Source: a gamma proteobacterium symbiont of Ctena orbiculata
GTDB taxonomy: Bacteria > Pseudomonadota > Gammaproteobacteria > Chromatiales > Chromatiaceae
Direction of reading: 5' to 3'
DNA: 64,000 nt
NCBI GenBank assembly: GCA_003058495.1
Contig: QBVC01000029.1
Location: 27,857 to 91,856 of the forward strand
In this document: positions 25,344 through 57,229 of the stretch, piece by piece
How positions within the stretch are numbered: the first letter of the stretch is position 1
Layout: each line of letters begins with the position of its first letter
The notes under the pieces: generated by a model
What the model saw: the letters and a program-made list of their open reading frames with translations, nothing else
Database searches by the model: none
Told to the model about the DNA's origin: nothing
Made by a program: the position numbers and the translations under genes

Positions 25344-25526
25344 TTAGGAAGATTCTTCAGACTGCTCGCGTTTGATTCTTTCGTAGATCTCTTCCCGGTG
25401 TACGGTCACGTCGCGTGGTGCATTTACACCAATACGCACTTGATTTCCCTTAACACCCAGTACAGTAACCGTTACCTCGTCTCCAATCATCAGGGTTTCG
25501 CCAACTCGGCGAGTAAGTATTAACAT
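25344..25526 (-). CDS. csrA: Carbon storage regulator CsrA
   Basis: A 60-residue RNA-binding dimer that controls translation by binding GGA motifs in hairpin loops. The sequence [16 protein letters not shown] and the RNA-contact residues Leu4 and Arg44 are intact. It lies between lysC and tRNA-Ser, the conserved place. Its leader (25527-25734) contains a strong inverted repeat at 25560-25598. Three loci in this window carry AGGGAU-loop hairpins that could be CsrA targets. Confidence 0.97.
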
Positions 25527-50875: not shown

Positions 50876-51829
50876 ATGAGGAAATCGCGGTTATATCTCG
50901 TAGTGGCGCTGCTGCTTCTCAGCCCTCCAGGCACCAGCTTGGGGGCGCTGAATGTGGTGGTCAGCCTAAAACCGATCCATTCCCTGGTGGCGGCACTGAT
51001 GCAGGGCGTGGCGGAACCGAAGCTGTTACTGACCGACGCACAGTCCCCACACAGCATGACCCTCAGGCCGTCACAGATGCGGATGCTGAACGATGCGGAT
51101 CTGATCGTCTGGATCGGACCTGCCTTGGAGTCTTCTCTCGCCCAAATCCTAAAGCCCGATCGATACCGGGGGGAGCTGGTCAGCCTGATCCATACACCGA
51201 ATCTGCATCTGCTGCCGATTCGCGAGCACGAGGGTTGGCGCTCCCATGGAGAGGCCCATCACCATCACCATGCCCACCCGGATCCTGACTCCGATACGCC
51301 GATCCACGACACGCACATCTGGCTCTCCCCGGAGAATGCAGCCCGGATGGTTCGCTACCTGACCCGGATAGTGATAGGGCTGGATCAGTCCCATCGCGAG
51401 CAATACACGCAAAACAGCCAGGCCCTTTTGGCCCGTCTGCAGACCCTCGAAGGGCAGATCCGCGCCGAACTCGAGGCGGTGAAGAACAGACCCTACGTGG
51501 TGTTTCACGACGCCTACCAGTATTTCGAAGCACACTACGGACTGAACGCGGTGGGCAGTGTCAATATCGACCCGGACCGTCTCTCAGGCCCCCGGCATAT
51601 CCATCGCCTGCAAGAGACCATTCGTCGCACCAATGCCCGCTGCCTCTTCAGCGAACCCCAATTCGAACCGAAACTTGTCCGCACCCTGGTGGATGAGCTC
51701 GGACTGGGGAGCGGTGAGCTGGATCCATTGGGCAAACAGCTGGCAGCCGGGCCCGACAGCTACTTCAGTCTGATGAAGGGGCTCACCGACAACCTGATCG
51801 GATGCCTCTCCAGGGGGATGAATCGGTGA
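50876..51829 (+). CDS. znuA: Zinc ABC transporter solute-binding protein ZnuA
   Basis: A 317-residue periplasmic zinc-binding protein. Signal peptide (cleavage after TSLG), LNVVVSLKPIHSLVAALMQGV, SPHSMTLRPSQMRML with the first zinc histidine, a His-rich loop (HGEAHHHHHAHPDPDSDT), HDTHIWLSPENA, and VFHDAYQYFEAHYGL. ATG 50876 is preferred over TTG 50870. It is first in znuA-zur-znuC-znuB, all overlapping. Confidence 0.95.
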   Translation: MRKSRLYLVVALLLLSPPGTSLGALNVVVSLKPIHSLVAALMQGVAEPKLLLTDAQSPHSMTLRPSQMRMLNDADLIVWIGPALESSLAQILKPDRYRGELVSLIHTPNLHLLPIREHEGWRSHGEAHHHHHAHPDPDSDTPIHDTHIWLSPENAARMVRYLTRIVIGLDQSHREQYTQNSQALLARLQTLEGQIRAELEAVKNRPYVVFHDAYQYFEAHYGLNAVGSVNIDPDRLSGPRHIHRLQETIRRTNARCLFSEPQFEPKLVRTLVDELGLGSGELDPLGKQLAAGPDSYFSLMKGLTDNLIGCLSRGMNR

Positions 51830-52335
51830 AATCGAACAAACATCCGAACAATTTTCCCAGCGCCGATCATGATCACCAGCGCTGTGTGGATAGTGCCCTG
51901 GGCAAGGCCGAGAGCTACTGCACTGCCCGGGGTGTGCGCCTGACCAAGCTGCGCCACCGGGTATTGGAACTGATCTGGGCCAACCATCGACCGGTCGGGG
52001 CCTACGACCTGCTGCAGCAGCTGACCCTGGAAGGACACAAGGCGTCACCACCCACGATCTACCGATCACTCGACTTCCTCCTCGACAACGGCCTCATTCA
52101 CCGCATCAACTCGCTCAATGCCTACGTCGGCTGCGACCATCCGGGACTCGATCATGCGGCACAGTTCTTCATCTGCGGCGCCTGCGGCCAGGCCGCCGAA
52201 CTGGAGGATACCAAGATAGATTCGGCAATCAGCGGGCATGCGAGACGCATCGGTTTTTGCATCGAGGGAAAAACCATCGAGATCAGCGGCACCTGCGCCA
52301 ACTGTCAACAACAACAGCGCGATCGACAGGGATGA
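51826..52335 (+). CDS. zur: Zinc uptake regulator Zur (Fur family)
   Basis: Zinc-sensing repressor of zinc uptake. The 169-residue protein has a winged helix (about residues 30-90; [28 protein letters not shown]), [22 protein letters not shown] with a CxxC structural zinc site, and a second CANC near the C-terminus. The start is GTG 51826, overlapping the znuA stop (GTGA) with GGGGG upstream. It overlaps znuC by ATGA. The adjacent Zur box implies autoregulation. Confidence 0.94.
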
Positions 52336-53102
52336 ACCGGAAGATGACCCCACTGCTTGAAGCCAGGGAGATCAGTATCAGACTGCAGGGACGTCAGCTC
52401 CTCGAGCGGGTCAGCCTGAAGGTGGACCAGGGAGAGATCGTCACCCTGATCGGACCCAACGGGGCGGGCAAGACCACCCTGGTGCGGATCATCCTCGGCC
52501 TGCTGAAGGCCGATCAGGGAGAGGTTGTTCTGCAGCCGGGAGTGCGCATCGGCTATATGCCGCAACAGCTCGCCCTGTCTGAAAACATGCCTTTGCGGGT
52601 GGAGCGCTTTTTGTCCCTGGGCGCAGGCAGGTCCGACAGCGATGTTGCAACTATCGTCGATGAGCTGCTCATCGGCAAGCTGCTGCGGCAGCCGATGCAG
52701 CGCCTCTCCGGCGGTGAGCGCCAGCGGGTCCTGCTGGCCCGGGCGCTGATGCGGCGACCCGAGCTTTTGGTCCTCGACGAGCCGGTACAGGGTGTGGACG
52801 TGACCGGCCAGGCGGCCCTCTACTCGTTGATCACCGAGATACGTGAACGTTTCGGATGCGGGGTACTGATGATCTCCCACGATCTCCATCTGGTGATGGC
52901 CACCACGGATCAGGTGCTCTGCCTGAATCAGCACGTCTGCTGCTCAGGGCACCCCGAGAGTGTCAGCCAGCACCCCGCCTATCTCGAGCTGTTCGGGGCG
53001 CCCGCCAGCGCCAGGCTGGCGGTCTACACCCACCATCACGACCATACCCACGACATCCACGGCGATGTGGAAGCGGAGTCTGAGGAGCACTCCCATGGAT
53101 GA
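52332..53102 (+). CDS. znuC: Zinc ABC transporter ATPase ZnuC
   Basis: A 256-residue ATPase: Walker [10 protein letters not shown], signature LSGGERQRV, Walker [10 protein letters not shown]-loop SHDLH. The C-terminus carries a His-rich tail ([13 protein letters not shown]), common in ZnuC. It starts within the zur stop and overlaps znuB by 8 nt. As the only ATPase nearby it may also power the second permease at 47488-48267. Confidence 0.95.
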
Positions 53103-53886
53103 CTTTCTGCTGCGGGCGCTGATCGCCGGCCTGGGGGTCGCACTGGTGGCGGGACCCCTGGGGGTGTTCGTGGTGTGGCGGCGCATGGCCTATTTCGGCG
53201 ACACCCTCGCCCACTCCGCCCTGCTCGGGGTCGCCCTCGGTTTTCTCCTCGGCATCAACCTCAATCTCTCGGTGATCCTGCTGGGCATCCTGCTGGCGCT
53301 GCTGCTTGTCGCCATGGGCGGCAACCGCCAGCTGTCGCAAGACACCCAACTCGGCATCCTGGCCCACAGCGCGCTCTCCCTGGGTCTGGTGGTGATGGCG
53401 TTTCAGACCTCGATCAGGGTCGATCTGATGGGCTATCTGTTCGGCGATATCCTGGCGGTCACCGCCAGCGACCTGCTGTGGGTCTGGGGTGGCGGTCTCT
53501 GCGTGCTGCTGGCCCTGGGCCTGTTCTGGCGACCCCTCCTCTCGCTGACGGTGCATGAAGAGCTGGCCCAGGTCGAAGGCGTGCCGGTGGCCAGGATGCG
53601 GCTGCTCTTCATGCTCCTCATCGCCCTGGTGATCGCGGTCTCGATGAAGATCGTCGGGGTGCTGCTGATCACCTCCATGATGATCATTCCGGCCGCGGCG
53701 GCGAGGCGCTTCAGCCGCAGCCCGGAACAGATGGCGCTGATCGCAGCCGCCATCGGCGCCATCGCGGTGGCATTGGGACTGGCCGGTTCCTGGCACTGGG
53801 ACACCCCCGCCGGACCCTCGGTGGTGGTCGCGGCGGCGCTGCTATTCGCTGCAACACAGCTCGGTGGCAAAACTGGATATCCATGA
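53095..53886 (+). CDS. znuB: Zinc ABC transporter permease ZnuB
   Basis: A 263-residue ABC-3 permease with about eight helices. [22 protein letters not shown] and [21 protein letters not shown] are diagnostic. ATG 53095 starts at the conserved MDDFLLRAL; longer frames lie inside znuC. It is last in the znu operon; a 110-bp structured repeat follows. Confidence 0.95.
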
Positions 53887-53934
53887 TCCTTCACTGAACT
53901 ACTGATTTGCTGACTATTTAACAGTACCACTCGA

Positions 53935-54044
53935 GTCATTGCGACGTTAGCCGTATAGGAAAGTGTCGGCCGCAGGGATGCGGCCGTCAAGCGCCCAGGG
54001 ATGGGTTTACAGCGTCTTTCCTATACGGCTAACGTCGCAATGAC
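53935..54044 (+). repeat. Structured element A: 29-bp perfect stem enclosing two AGGGAT-loop hairpins
   Basis: Arms 53935-53963 and 54016-54044 are perfectly complementary over 29 bp. Inside, on the plus strand, are GGCCGC-AGGGAT-GCGGCC and CCC-AGGGAT-GGG. The RNA would be a long closing stem with a two-hairpin junction. Loops with C and G flanks match CARGGAUG of the CsrA consensus and resemble the TwoAYGGAY RNA motif, except for G at the second loop position. It lies between convergent znuB and the gene at 54076. Confidence 0.8.
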
Positions 54045-54075
54045 GATCTCAGAAATTGAACCAACACCAACGACT

Positions 54076-55242
54076 CTAATCGGCTGGCCAATAATCGGTC
54101 CCGATCCCATCCCCCAGATCGGCCTCGATGAGGCGGCGTCTCACCTCCAGCAACCTCTCCAACAGCGCCGGCTCTGCCACACCATAGGCCTCCGCGTTGG
54201 GCACCCGTTTCACCACCACCCCCAGCAGCTCGGTGATGGCGTTGCCGATGGAGTTCTGACTGATGGTTACGATCAGCTTGCCCGCCTCGTTGCGATAGAT
54301 GAGCTGCTTGAAGGCGGGCTGCCAGCGAATCGCATTGGCGTACTTGGCGTCGATGATGCACTGATCCCTGACCCGCTTCGCGGTGGCGAGAAAGTCGTTG
54401 TTGAAGAGGAGCACGCTCTCCACCTGATCCGGGTAGTAGACATCCTTCGGCATCGGCGCGTTGCGGGTGGAGACCTGACTGAAGAAGGTTCGATAGAAAT
54501 CGATAAAGCCCTCGAGAATGGCATCGTACTCATGCCAGAAACGGATATTCTTCAATGCCTCCACGCCGCCCCTTATCTCCCAGCAGGGCAGTCCCTGAGG
54601 GTAACCGGTCAGCTGGATATTCGACTCATCCGAACTTATCGGTTTCAACACCTTCAGTTCCAATGCGCGGTCGAAGAACTGCCGATAGACATCCCGCATA
54701 TAGGACTGGAAGAGGCTGTGCTGCCCCCCGTCGGTGAGGTTGGGATTGTCGCTATCCGCCAGCTTCGCCGCCCTCAGCTGCGCCATGGGAAACACCATGA
54801 AGTGGTTGTGCAGCATGCGGATGCTCGGCACCCCGGGGGAGCTCAACGGCCAGGTGGCATCCAGGCTCGCCTCCCCCGCCAGGATCAGGTGGCTGGCCGG
54901 ATCGGGATAGAGCTCGTCCATGTAGCCGATGATGATCTGGTTCATGCGGTTCCAGACATGGCGGACGTCTTCCGGCACCTGGGTCCGCCGCACCGGCCGG
55001 CCGAGGGGGTCGAGGATCACCCGGGAGGTGTTGTAGATGATTGAGGTATCGAACTCGTTGCTGTGGCCCAGGGCCTTGCGATAGAGGAGCAGGTGCTCCG
55101 GGTTGATCAGCAGGCCGTTGTTGTGGATCAGGTCATTGAGGTTTTCCGTGCTGTTGAAAAACTCGTTGGGTTTCATCCCCTCCGGCACGTCCAGCGGGAT
55201 GGGACGGAAGGGATTGATGATCTCGCGGGGTCCGTACTCCAT
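54076..55242 (-). CDS. Conserved-looking protein of unknown function
   Basis: A 388-residue soluble protein without signal peptide or membrane segment and with normal codon usage. No family was recognised. Features: an N-terminal Pro-rich start (INPFRPIPLDVPEG), LLINPEHLLLYRKALGHSNEFDTSIIYNTSRV, a HNHFMVFPMAQLRAAKLA segment with two histidines, a DVYYPDQVESVLLFNNDFL middle and a charged C-terminal helix. HNHFMVFP is reminiscent of HIT-type HxH motifs, but too little to assign. It is a single gene bracketed by elements A and B, with B in its likely leader. Confidence 0.8.
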   Translation of the reverse strand: MEYGPREIINPFRPIPLDVPEGMKPNEFFNSTENLNDLIHNNGLLINPEHLLLYRKALGHSNEFDTSIIYNTSRVILDPLGRPVRRTQVPEDVRHVWNRMNQIIIGYMDELYPDPASHLILAGEASLDATWPLSSPGVPSIRMLHNHFMVFPMAQLRAAKLADSDNPNLTDGGQHSLFQSYMRDVYRQFFDRALELKVLKPISSDESNIQLTGYPQGLPCWEIRGGVEALKNIRFWHEYDAILEGFIDFYRTFFSQVSTRNAPMPKDVYYPDQVESVLLFNNDFLATAKRVRDQCIIDAKYANAIRWQPAFKQLIYRNEAGKLIVTISQNSIGNAITELLGVVVKRVPNAEAYGVAEPALLERLLEVRRRLIEADLGDGIGTDYWPAD

Positions 55243-55499
55243 CTAAAAAGCCTCCTGGTGAAGAACTGCATAACGATTCCCTAATGCAACCGTTGTGCGT
55301 TACCCTAAACAGCAGACTCGATGAAAACAAGATCATAGAAAATCTTATGGGTCTATTGAGTGAGTTTGCGAAGAATAGATAAGCATTCGTTTTTTAAATG
55401 TGGCTCGTCTATGCTGGATTGCAGATGATGTTCTCTAACCCTGGTCGCTGGAAACCAAGTAGTATCCGTTCAGAAACAACAAGTACTATTCTGCACCTC

Positions 55500-55605
55500 G
55501 GCGCCTGACGGTTATCTTTCTCCGACGCCCCGACAGCACATCCCTGTGCTGACGGGGCTTACGCGGCATCCCTGCCGCTACTGCGAAAGACAACCGTCAG
55601 GCGCC
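55500..55605 (-). repeat. Structured element B: closing stem with two AGGGAT-loop hairpins
   Basis: Arms 55500-55520 and 55585-55605 pair with one mismatch over 21 bp. On the minus strand they enclose GCGGC-AGGGAT-GCCGC and GCAC-AGGGAT-GTGC (the latter extended by CCCCG/CGGGG flanks). ACAGGGATGT matches ACARGGAUGU of the CsrA consensus at every position. The architecture is the same as element A with different arms. It occupies part of the 55243-55674 gap, upstream of both flanking genes. The rest of that gap is AT-rich, with no gene. Confidence 0.8.
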
Positions 55606-55674
55606 ACCGACTATCATGTGTTTTTTTTAAATAGACTCTTGATAATTACCAATCATTGAGGTCGAAAGAGAAGC

Positions 55675-56979
55675 GTGATCATTATCCTCACGGGAGTCTC
55701 AGGCTCCGGCAAGACAACCATCGGACAACGCCTGGCGCAGGACCTGGGCTGGCGTTTCATCGAAGGCGACGACTACCACCCCGCGGAGAACCGGAAAAAA
55801 ATGGCGGCCGGCACGCCTCTCGATGACAACGATCGCCAACCCTGGCTCGTTGAACTGGAGAGGGTGATTACCCAATCCATCCAGTCTGGAGATGATGCGG
55901 TCCTCGCCAGCTCGGCCTTGAAAGAGCGCTACCGGGAGCAGCTGCGGGTGGATCCGGAACAGGTGCGGCTGGTCTATCTCTGCGGTTCCTACGAGCTGAT
56001 CCTGGAGCGGCTGAAGCAACGCATCGGCCATTTCATGAAGCCGGAGATGTTGCGCAGCCAGTTCGACGACCTGGAGCGGCCCAGCGATACCCTGGTGATC
56101 GATATTCACCAGGCCCCCGAGAAGATCGTCGATCAGATCATCGACCGGCTCAACCTGCCCGCCACCCGGCTGCTGCTGGATGGGTTGATGTTTCCCGAGG
56201 CGCCCCGCTGGCGCGACGGCTGGCTCTGGTTCACCGATCAACATGCCCAGCGCATCGTTCGGGTCAGCCCAGACGGGGAATCGGAAACCGTCGCTGAACT
56301 GGATGACCTGCCTGGAGGTCTGGGCTGGCTGCCGGACGGCCGCCTGCTGGTGGTATCGATGACCAAGCGGCAACTGCTGGTACTCGAGGATGGTGGACTC
56401 CGTCTCTATGCCGACCTCTCGGATCTCGCCTCTTTCCACTGCAACGATATGCTCGTCGATGCCCGGGGCCGCTGCTACGTGGGCAACTTCGGCTACGATC
56501 TCCACGCTGGTGCCGAACAGAGCCCCGCCGAGCTGATCCTGGTCGACACCCAAGGCGCATGCTCGATCGTTGCCAGGGAGATGATCTTTCCCAATGGCTG
56601 CGCCCTCACCCCGGACGGTTCCACTCTGTTGGTGGCTGAAACTTTCGCCTCACGCATCACCGCCTTCGATGTGGAAAAGGATGGCGCTTTGGCTAAGCGA
56701 TGCATCTGGGCCGAACTGGGGGATGCCTACCCGGATGGTATCTGCCTGGATAGGAATGGCCTGTTGTGGATCGCCGCACCCAATCAGTCGCGTCTGATTC
56801 TGGTACGCGAGGGGGGCGAAATCATGCGCAGTATAAAACCCTTGGGATCACCCTATGCCTGTATCTTGGGGGGTGATGATGGAGAGCTACTATTCATCGC
56901 CAGTTCGGAGACCGATGAACCCGAATCTGCCAAACAGCAAAAGAGCGGCAGAATAGAAACAATGGCAATTCAGCCTTGA
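55675..56979 (+). CDS. Bifunctional gluconokinase / SMP-30-type gluconolactonase fusion
   Basis: A 434-residue two-domain enzyme. Residues 1-162 are a GntK-type gluconokinase: P-loop GVSGSGKTT (7-15), EGDDYHPAENRKKMAAGTPLDDNDRQPWL, and ASSALKERYREQLR. Residues 163-434 form an SMP-30/gluconolactonase propeller with the metal-site residues Glu175 (MFPEAPRW), Asn257 (FHCNDML), Asn307 (FPNGCALTPDG) and Asp354 (YPDGICLDRNG) all present. One chain could therefore open gluconolactone and phosphorylate gluconate to 6-phosphogluconate. Start GTG 55675. Both halves look intact. The SDR at 63470 may supply the lactone. Confidence 0.9.
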   Translation: MIIILTGVSGSGKTTIGQRLAQDLGWRFIEGDDYHPAENRKKMAAGTPLDDNDRQPWLVELERVITQSIQSGDDAVLASSALKERYREQLRVDPEQVRLVYLCGSYELILERLKQRIGHFMKPEMLRSQFDDLERPSDTLVIDIHQAPEKIVDQIIDRLNLPATRLLLDGLMFPEAPRWRDGWLWFTDQHAQRIVRVSPDGESETVAELDDLPGGLGWLPDGRLLVVSMTKRQLLVLEDGGLRLYADLSDLASFHCNDMLVDARGRCYVGNFGYDLHAGAEQSPAELILVDTQGACSIVAREMIFPNGCALTPDGSTLLVAETFASRITAFDVEKDGALAKRCIWAELGDAYPDGICLDRNGLLWIAAPNQSRLILVREGGEIMRSIKPLGSPYACILGGDDGELLFIASSETDEPESAKQQKSGRIETMAIQP

Positions 56980-57229
56980 TGCTCTAACACCCCTGATTTA
57001 CCCCCATACTTCTACCTCTTACTGATCAGGTAAAGCGACATAAACATCAGCATTGGGTCCTTTACATCAACAGCACATCATCAGACATTCTTACCCACTA
57101 AATCACTACTGTCGTGTTAAATTAGGTTAAACATCAACATACTCCATTGTACTCTCGTAATTTAATAGGAATGAGGATTATGCAAGAGATAAAAAATCGA
57201 CAACCTGTGTCCTTGATCTTTCTGTCGCT

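Follow-up and report, generated by a model that had tools for sequence, protein, structure and literature searches.

A dispersed YPAL/RU-2-type repeat core in a symbiont of Ctena orbiculata, with twin hairpins predicted to bind CsrA

We analysed a 64 000-nucleotide stretch of DNA, the window, from a gammaproteobacterial symbiont of Ctena orbiculata (assembly GCA_003058495.1, contig QBVC01000029.1, positions 27 857 to 91 856 of the forward strand), the genus of which we take to be Candidatus Thiodiazotropha. A twin-hairpin element, element A, occupies 110 bases at window positions 53935–54044, downstream of a znuB-like gene. On a slight balance we favour reading it as a 110-bp repeat built on the core of the Yersinia repeat YPAL/RU-2, whose transcript is predicted to present two ANGGAN hexaloops and would likely be the ligand of one CsrA dimer. 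The most likely description of element A is thus a mobile, predicted CsrA-binding RNA hairpin lying 3′ of znuB. Papers are cited by their PMC identifiers.

Both hairpins are enclosed by a 29-bp inverted repeat that is 100% complementary, the longest among those listed for 51000–57000 (Table 1). The AGGGAT loops have C...G closing pairs at 53973–53980 and 53996–54003; the minimum-energy fold pairs an A with a U in each loop, giving four-base loops, and drawn as hexaloops they read AGGGAU. RNA folded from 53925–54054 reaches −78.3 kcal/mol versus −39.0 (sd 3.8) for shuffled sequences (z −10.4), none of 200 shuffles being as stable. The first-pass annotation, made from the letters of the window alone, had described twin AGGGAU hairpins within a perfect 29-bp inverted repeat, and complementarity, loop letters and fold bear this out with coordinates exact to the base. 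The 168-nt YPAL/RU-2 copy printed in Table 1b of PMC2759123 aligns with element A along GTC, hairpin 1, TCGAGC, hairpin 2 and TTTACGGCGTC; judged by this alignment, element A has the YPAL core without the YPAL outer parts.

Table 1. Features of the window discussed in the text (positions counted from the first base of the window)
Feature	Coordinates	Strand	Basis and remarks
Element A closing stem, 5′ arm (29 nt)	53935..53963	+	Fold; 100% complementary to 54016–54044
Element A hairpin 1	53967..53986	+	Loop AGGGAT at 53974–53979 (ANGGAN); loop kept across copies
Element A hairpin 2	53991..54013	+	Loop AGGGAT at 53997–54002 (ANGGAN), 23 nt past that of hairpin 1; conserved TTTACAGC stretch
Element A closing stem, 3′ arm	54016..54044	+	Complementary to 53935–53963
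ABC-3 family metal transporter permease gene, znuB-like	53095..53886	+	Open reading frame; Pfam PF00950
388-aa gene, family unassigned	54076..55242	-	Open reading frame; no Pfam match at E 0.001; present in 18 of 22 genus genomes
Element B, second twin-hairpin repeat	55493..55612	-	Rfam TwoAYGGAY RF01731, 43.7 bits (gathering cut-off 43)
csrA, 60 aa, proposed binding protein	25344..25526	-	PF02599, 2.8e-26

The loops carry the prediction. We searched for paired hexaloop hairpins on a long stem, with no constraint on the loop letters, in loci that had been collected with the core pattern or with core models rather than at random. Among 161 distinct copies, loop 1 reads A (161), N, G (161), G (161), A (160), N and loop 2 reads A (160), N, G (161), G (161), A (160), N, with letters 2 and 6 variable and the hairpins offset by 23 nt in 159 of the 161. 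The same holds for the 68 copies whose loci were picked with model R1 or Ysr224 and not by loop pattern; position 2 of their first loop is G in 48, T in 15 and A in five, and the next two G are kept in 68 of 68. Loop conservation across copies had been named beforehand as a test that could sink the CsrA idea, and the loops hold to ANGGAN with at most one exception per position.

Excerpts of the review PMC7652899 give the RsmE-bound hexaloop as ANGGAN with both N variable, the consensus from systematic evolution of ligands by exponential enrichment (SELEX) as RUACARGGAUGU, and the distance over which one CsrA dimer can bridge two sites as 10–63 nt. Element A has ANGGAN hexaloops on hairpins at a spacing within that range. 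In their letters, the copies match the CsrA/RsmE loop both where it is recognised and where it is left free.

Compensatory changes in the stems, the other test named beforehand, are present as well. Alignment A1 consists of 33 hand-picked rows (the window plus 32 loci), all of them long-stem pattern matches, and shows the well-formed majority of copies. Its closing stem is paired in 96.8% of alignment cells and for each of its 18 pairs at least one copy has both partners changed; over the whole structure 97.5% of 1122 cells are paired versus 65.2% in shuffles. The covariation score is 0.812, against 0.173 when shuffled and at most 0.142 when slid, a comparison in which related rows can exceed shuffles without structure.

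Stem covariation alone could stem from palindrome repair at the DNA level, and for this reason we compared G.U with A.C mismatches in the arms. Wobbles on the loop strand (G.U) and on the other strand (A.C) were scored alike, superseding a first count whose stem score favoured G.U. From 184 distinct candidates found without use of the arms, 155 had at least 14 of 20 Watson-Crick arm pairs and 91 remained after removal of similar arms. The ratio of G.U to A.C was 28:7 in the 91 dereplicated copies (p 0.0005), 58:16 in all 155, and 32:11 under a looser arm cut (11/20, 73 copies); in 15 distinct copies of element B, which are close kin, it was 8:0. On balance the loop-bearing strand looks to be under selection as RNA.

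The core is widely dispersed. Its exact pattern has at least 119 matching stretches in named genomes, and the matches listed include Ectothiorhodospira, Halorhodospira, Thiohalobacter, Erwinia, Pseudomonas, Aquimonas and Pseudidiomarina; one listed actinobacterial match (Sinomonas, L060), with a stem of only 13 pairs, is probably chance. A closing stem of at least 20 bp was measured in 80 of the 112 distinct pattern matches with enough flank, the stem being shorter or broken in Pseudomonas, Aquimonas and most Erwinia matches. A covariance-model search seeded with elements A and B had been proposed by the first-pass annotation as a check; run on the genome and its relatives with a model from the 33 chosen rows, it found copies in 72 of 369 sampled gammaproteobacterial genomes at E ≤0.001 (60 of the 314 of good quality). 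This class-wide scan scored at most 12 candidates per genome and its copy numbers are floors. The same model found the core in 4 of 22 genus genomes at E 0.01. Within the window genome (G000), element A is the sole strong copy (98.4 bits), and four weaker matches (30–37 bits) are B-type. Its 110 bases are identical, and in the same place, in a sister genome (G006). They gave no match in the plasmid collection, and one exact core pattern had no match in viral contigs. The znuB/388-aa gene pair is kept in 10 genus genomes, two with element A and eight without, which shows only gain or loss; the spacers of the eight are too divergent for an insertion target to be read.

Some loci hold many copies. 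Dense core clusters in both orientations, within about 2–4 kb, occur at L084, L114, L133 (Erwinia sp. ErVv1) and L160, and look like expanding arrays; at L114 core copies alternate with an inverted relative that bears different arms. Opposite-orientation copy pairs about 90–250 bases apart are seen at L067, L105, L082, L130, L148 and L146.

In relatives the core has moved with transposon-like ends. Genome G273 has 239 matches to a 13-base end, CAGCAATTCCCAR, versus 0 for the reversed control. Both ends are present in 20 elements (26 loci examined), flanked by an exact 9-bp direct repeat in 16 of 20 and by one matching at 8 or more of 9 positions in 18, where the control never exceeded 6. A 234-bp element of Thiohalobacter (G229) with ends CACTGCTGTCCCGTTA has 9-bp repeats that are exact in four of seven cases, match at 8 of 9 in two and are lacking in one. 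Presumably these ends resemble those of an IS4-type family. Several B-type copies have outer ends like TAGTGTCCRTCC beside TA (judged by eye), unlike the ends in other lineages. Since the ends differ among G273, Thiohalobacter and B copies, one core is carried by elements that do not share their ends. A search of the collected loci for exact end pairs 600–2600 bp apart revealed no autonomous transposase with matching ends. At element A itself the 29-bp inverted repeat is the only mark of a miniature inverted-repeat transposable element (MITE) that is seen, terminal repeats and target duplications being found in G273 and Thiohalobacter. Among the guesses of the first-pass annotation, the one that agrees best with these relatives, by their 9-bp target duplications, is a CsrA-type RNA borne on a miniature mobile element; no such duplication is visible at A.

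Elements also differ internally. In two Thiohalobacter loci (L235, L239) the core points the other way with respect to the outer parts of its own element when compared with two others (L237, L238), as though the stretch enclosed by the arms had flipped. The G273 elements (L303–L322) span 147 to 399 bp, and the longer ones have hairpin 1 enlarged by extra hairpins. Among 85 hairpin loops in 19 distinct G273 elements, the GGA motif occurs in 25 on the strand of hairpin 2 and in 25 on the other, reaching six in a single element; shuffled elements have it in 120 of 1889 loops. Growth in this lineage is largely by GGA hairpins, whose modules are related and so represent few independent events. Most of the added GGA hairpins face the opposite way, and therefore either direction of transcription would expose some GGA loops.

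The proposed binding protein is encoded in the window itself. Its residue 44 is Arg, a position at which change alters the RNA-binding surface of CsrA according to the excerpts of PMC7652899. A csrA gene was found in 67 of 72 carriers of the core versus 246 of 297 other genomes (Fisher p 0.029, with ancestry and genome size ignored), and among good-quality genomes in 59 of 60 versus 221 of 254 (p 0.009, ancestry ignored); genomes outside the positive list were taken as negative. In two genus genomes (L009 and L026, both near 1501) a GGGCGCAGGGATGCGCCC hairpin lies downstream of a glycine-methionine-rich frame, possibly a separate CsrA-type site.

The znuB-like gene stops 48 bases 5′ of element A, and the AGGGAT loops lie on the znuB strand. 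Convergent with znuB, the 388-aa gene ends 31 bases past the element. Further along, at 55675–56979 (+), a fused gene encodes a kinase-like domain (SKI/AAA) followed by an SMP-30/gluconolactonase domain.

As we picture it, element A would be transcribed, perhaps by read-through from znuB, which is suggested because the loops read on the znuB strand. The long stem of the transcript would present its two ANGGAN loops, 23 nt apart, to one CsrA dimer, and CsrA would bind the RNA. Copies could then serve as scattered CsrA sites or as decoys, and bring the element or a neighbouring mRNA under CsrA control. A broader proposal, which we hold tentatively and consider possible rather than probable, is that one CsrA-binding RNA cassette has spread across Gammaproteobacteria in unrelated miniature transposons, planting ready-made sites, with up to six GGA hairpins per element in one lineage, as a selfish repeat that taps a global regulator or is tamed by it. 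About one in five of the sampled gammaproteobacterial genomes has the YPAL-type core, and YPAL and TwoAYGGAY both bear CsrA-type twin hairpins here. If CsrA binds them, transposition has seeded many genomes with numerous CsrA sites that have gone uncounted, with a bearing on CsrA titration and on the origin of new regulon members.

Several observations weigh against a CsrA-binding transcript from a mobile element. Orientation is one. Gene calls were crude open reading frames, and seven array loci were excluded, as were copies lying within 700 bases of either end of a locus. Genes flanked 127 copies on both sides; 18 inside a long open reading frame were set aside, and 84 had both genes within 300 bases. 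Of these 84, 32 lie between convergent genes and 10 between divergent ones; between co-directional genes antisense exceeds sense by 28:14 (p 0.044 with these crude calls). Most copies between co-directional genes would therefore not be read in the loop sense from a neighbouring gene. This leaves three options: the RNA starts elsewhere, hosts purge sense insertions, or selection acts on another step. Sense-strand use in a 3′ untranslated region was rejected as the favoured reading on this count, and the suggestion of a 3′ regulatory structure, taken as a simple regulator of that kind, is not favoured by it. No promoter-like site was found in 53700–54300; a single stand-alone small RNA (sRNA) gene was also tried as the main explanation and rejected on this ground and on the dispersal of the core in 72 of 369 genomes. 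Hairpin 1 of element A exceeds the ≤4 bp favoured in SELEX (excerpts of PMC7652899). Five of the 72 carriers have no csrA match, one of which, G220, is 98% complete and has intact loops in its folded copy (L202); nor is there a csrA match in G006, which has two copies. In the alignment, further pair types do not rise above shuffles (113 of 500 as high). By eye, the flanks of element A show no target duplication. The site of the second G006 copy (L324, G000:C8 near 73617) retains about ten left-arm bases in the window genome, the remainder of the copy and about 67 bases of flank being missing, and looks like a deletion remnant; a deletion is likelier than a virgin site because part of the left arm is kept.

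Three other accounts share many of these data. The core may be a DNA signal, with a transposase or other protein reading extruded hairpins, the RNA incidental and template switching keeping the arms perfect. We think this unlikely. The target duplications and terminal repeats do speak of DNA transposition in relatives, in Thiohalobacter the core faces either way between the outer arms, which is what inversion between arms would give, the antisense excess over genes agrees with it, and perfect palindromes are common (a fully Watson-Crick stem of at least 20 bp in 38 of 161 copies). A DNA signal predicts equal numbers of G.U and A.C, yet the count is 28:7; the other mismatches lean likewise, A.G to C.T at 22:4 and G.G to C.C at 10:2, and this lean would be tolerable for RNA, yet a skew in strand composition, with which the A.G and G.G counts remain compatible, could also yield it. 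ANGGAN loops with free N suit a known RNA-binding protein, and the core is kept while terminal repeats differ between lineages.

Element A may instead be purely a 3′-end RNA hairpin that stabilises or shields the convergent znuB and 388-aa gene transcripts without CsrA, which we regard as quite improbable. Two convergent stop codons flank it at 48 and 31 bases, convergent gene pairs are frequent sites (32 of 84), and YPAL might influence the stability of upstream transcripts according to the excerpted review PMC2229807; a bare stem, though, needs neither ANGGAN loops nor a near-fixed 23-nt spacing, and the element is absent from 8 of the 10 genus genomes that keep this gene pair. An intrinsic terminator was rejected, no G+C-rich hairpin with a T-run being found in 53700–54300. 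The copy in the window genome could also be a leftover of an old mobile element, neutral and now without function, an account we find doubtful while taking it seriously. It is the only strong copy in its genome, the second sister-genome copy survives in G000 as a remnant only, and presence in the genus is patchy (4 of 22). Against decay stand the 110 bases identical in G000 and G006, with perfect arms and intact loops, a point to be read with the flanks, whose 388-aa proteins are 96% identical and znuB DNA 99% identical, leaving little time for element A to decay. A second pair (G016/G021) differs by one two-sided stem change and one one-sided change near the outer end. With these accounts set beside it, the predicted CsrA ligand on a YPAL-type core is the reading we retain.

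Element B lies 1.45 kb from element A; it shares the strand of the 388-aa gene, which it precedes by 250 bases, and is one of eleven B-type copies of similar shape in the window genome. It passes the TwoAYGGAY cut-off with lax filters and was unlisted in the fast window scan and the own-genome search, which gave five matches and in which three other copies pass the cut-off. TwoAYGGAY is a family of unknown function proposed to bind CsrA (excerpts of PMC4333381). Like element A it has two GGA hairpins in a long stem; its hairpin 2 and its spacing differ from those of A. Membership of element A was rejected, as the model gave no report up to E 5 and A is absent from the five own-genome matches. 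The first pass had noticed a likeness of element A to TwoAYGGAY; it is element B that passes, by a score just over the cut-off.

Sponge RNAs of the CsrB/RsmY/RsmZ type, which gave no match in the window at the gathering cut-off, resemble element A in having more than one GGA hairpin loop per RNA; they are stand-alone genes with many sites, whereas element A is a two-site dispersed repeat with no promoter-like site found in the interval searched. Bacterial MITEs (ERIC, Correia/NEMIS, RUP; excerpts of PMC2229807) are likewise short, palindromic, dispersed and without a known protein, with target duplications in the relatives of A. The A-type arms, in contrast, vary by copy, and the outer terminal repeats differ by lineage around one conserved RNA core.

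Searches of the open-access literature, which leaves aside most subscription journals, found no paper joining YPAL and CsrA; MITE with CsrA gave nothing on point there, and neither the core letters nor broader mixed terms brought up a title on such a repeat among the matches listed. The Rfam family Ysr224 (RF02770), a Yersinia sRNA, matches element A weakly (31.8 bits, E 7e-5, below the 70-bit cut-off) and matches at E ≤0.001 in 16 of 143 sampled genomes, all below that cut-off. Its model lies on the strand opposite to the element A hairpins, where the loops read TCC; the family looks like one copy of the YPAL repeat annotated on the strand that lacks GGA loops, and this may account for its high counts in a genome survey (excerpts of PMC9029176).

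The nearest known system is YPAL/RU-2 itself, treated as a repeat of Yersinia and Erwinia in the excerpts of PMC2229807, PMC2759123 and PMC2847712, and described in the first as a miniature element with target duplications of 3–26 bp at sites spanning or adjoining dyad symmetry. Its printed copy has loops AAGGAT and ATGGAT, both ANGGAN, and like element A it has a long internal inverted repeat and is intergenic. It differs in length, about 168 bp with outer sequences that have no counterpart in the 110-bp element A, and in number, with dozens of copies in most Yersinia genomes listed in the excerpts of PMC2847712 versus one strong copy here. Beside these systems, and within the open-access literature searched, the CsrA pattern in YPAL-type elements, their class-wide reach and their carriage by transposons with different ends seem to be new.
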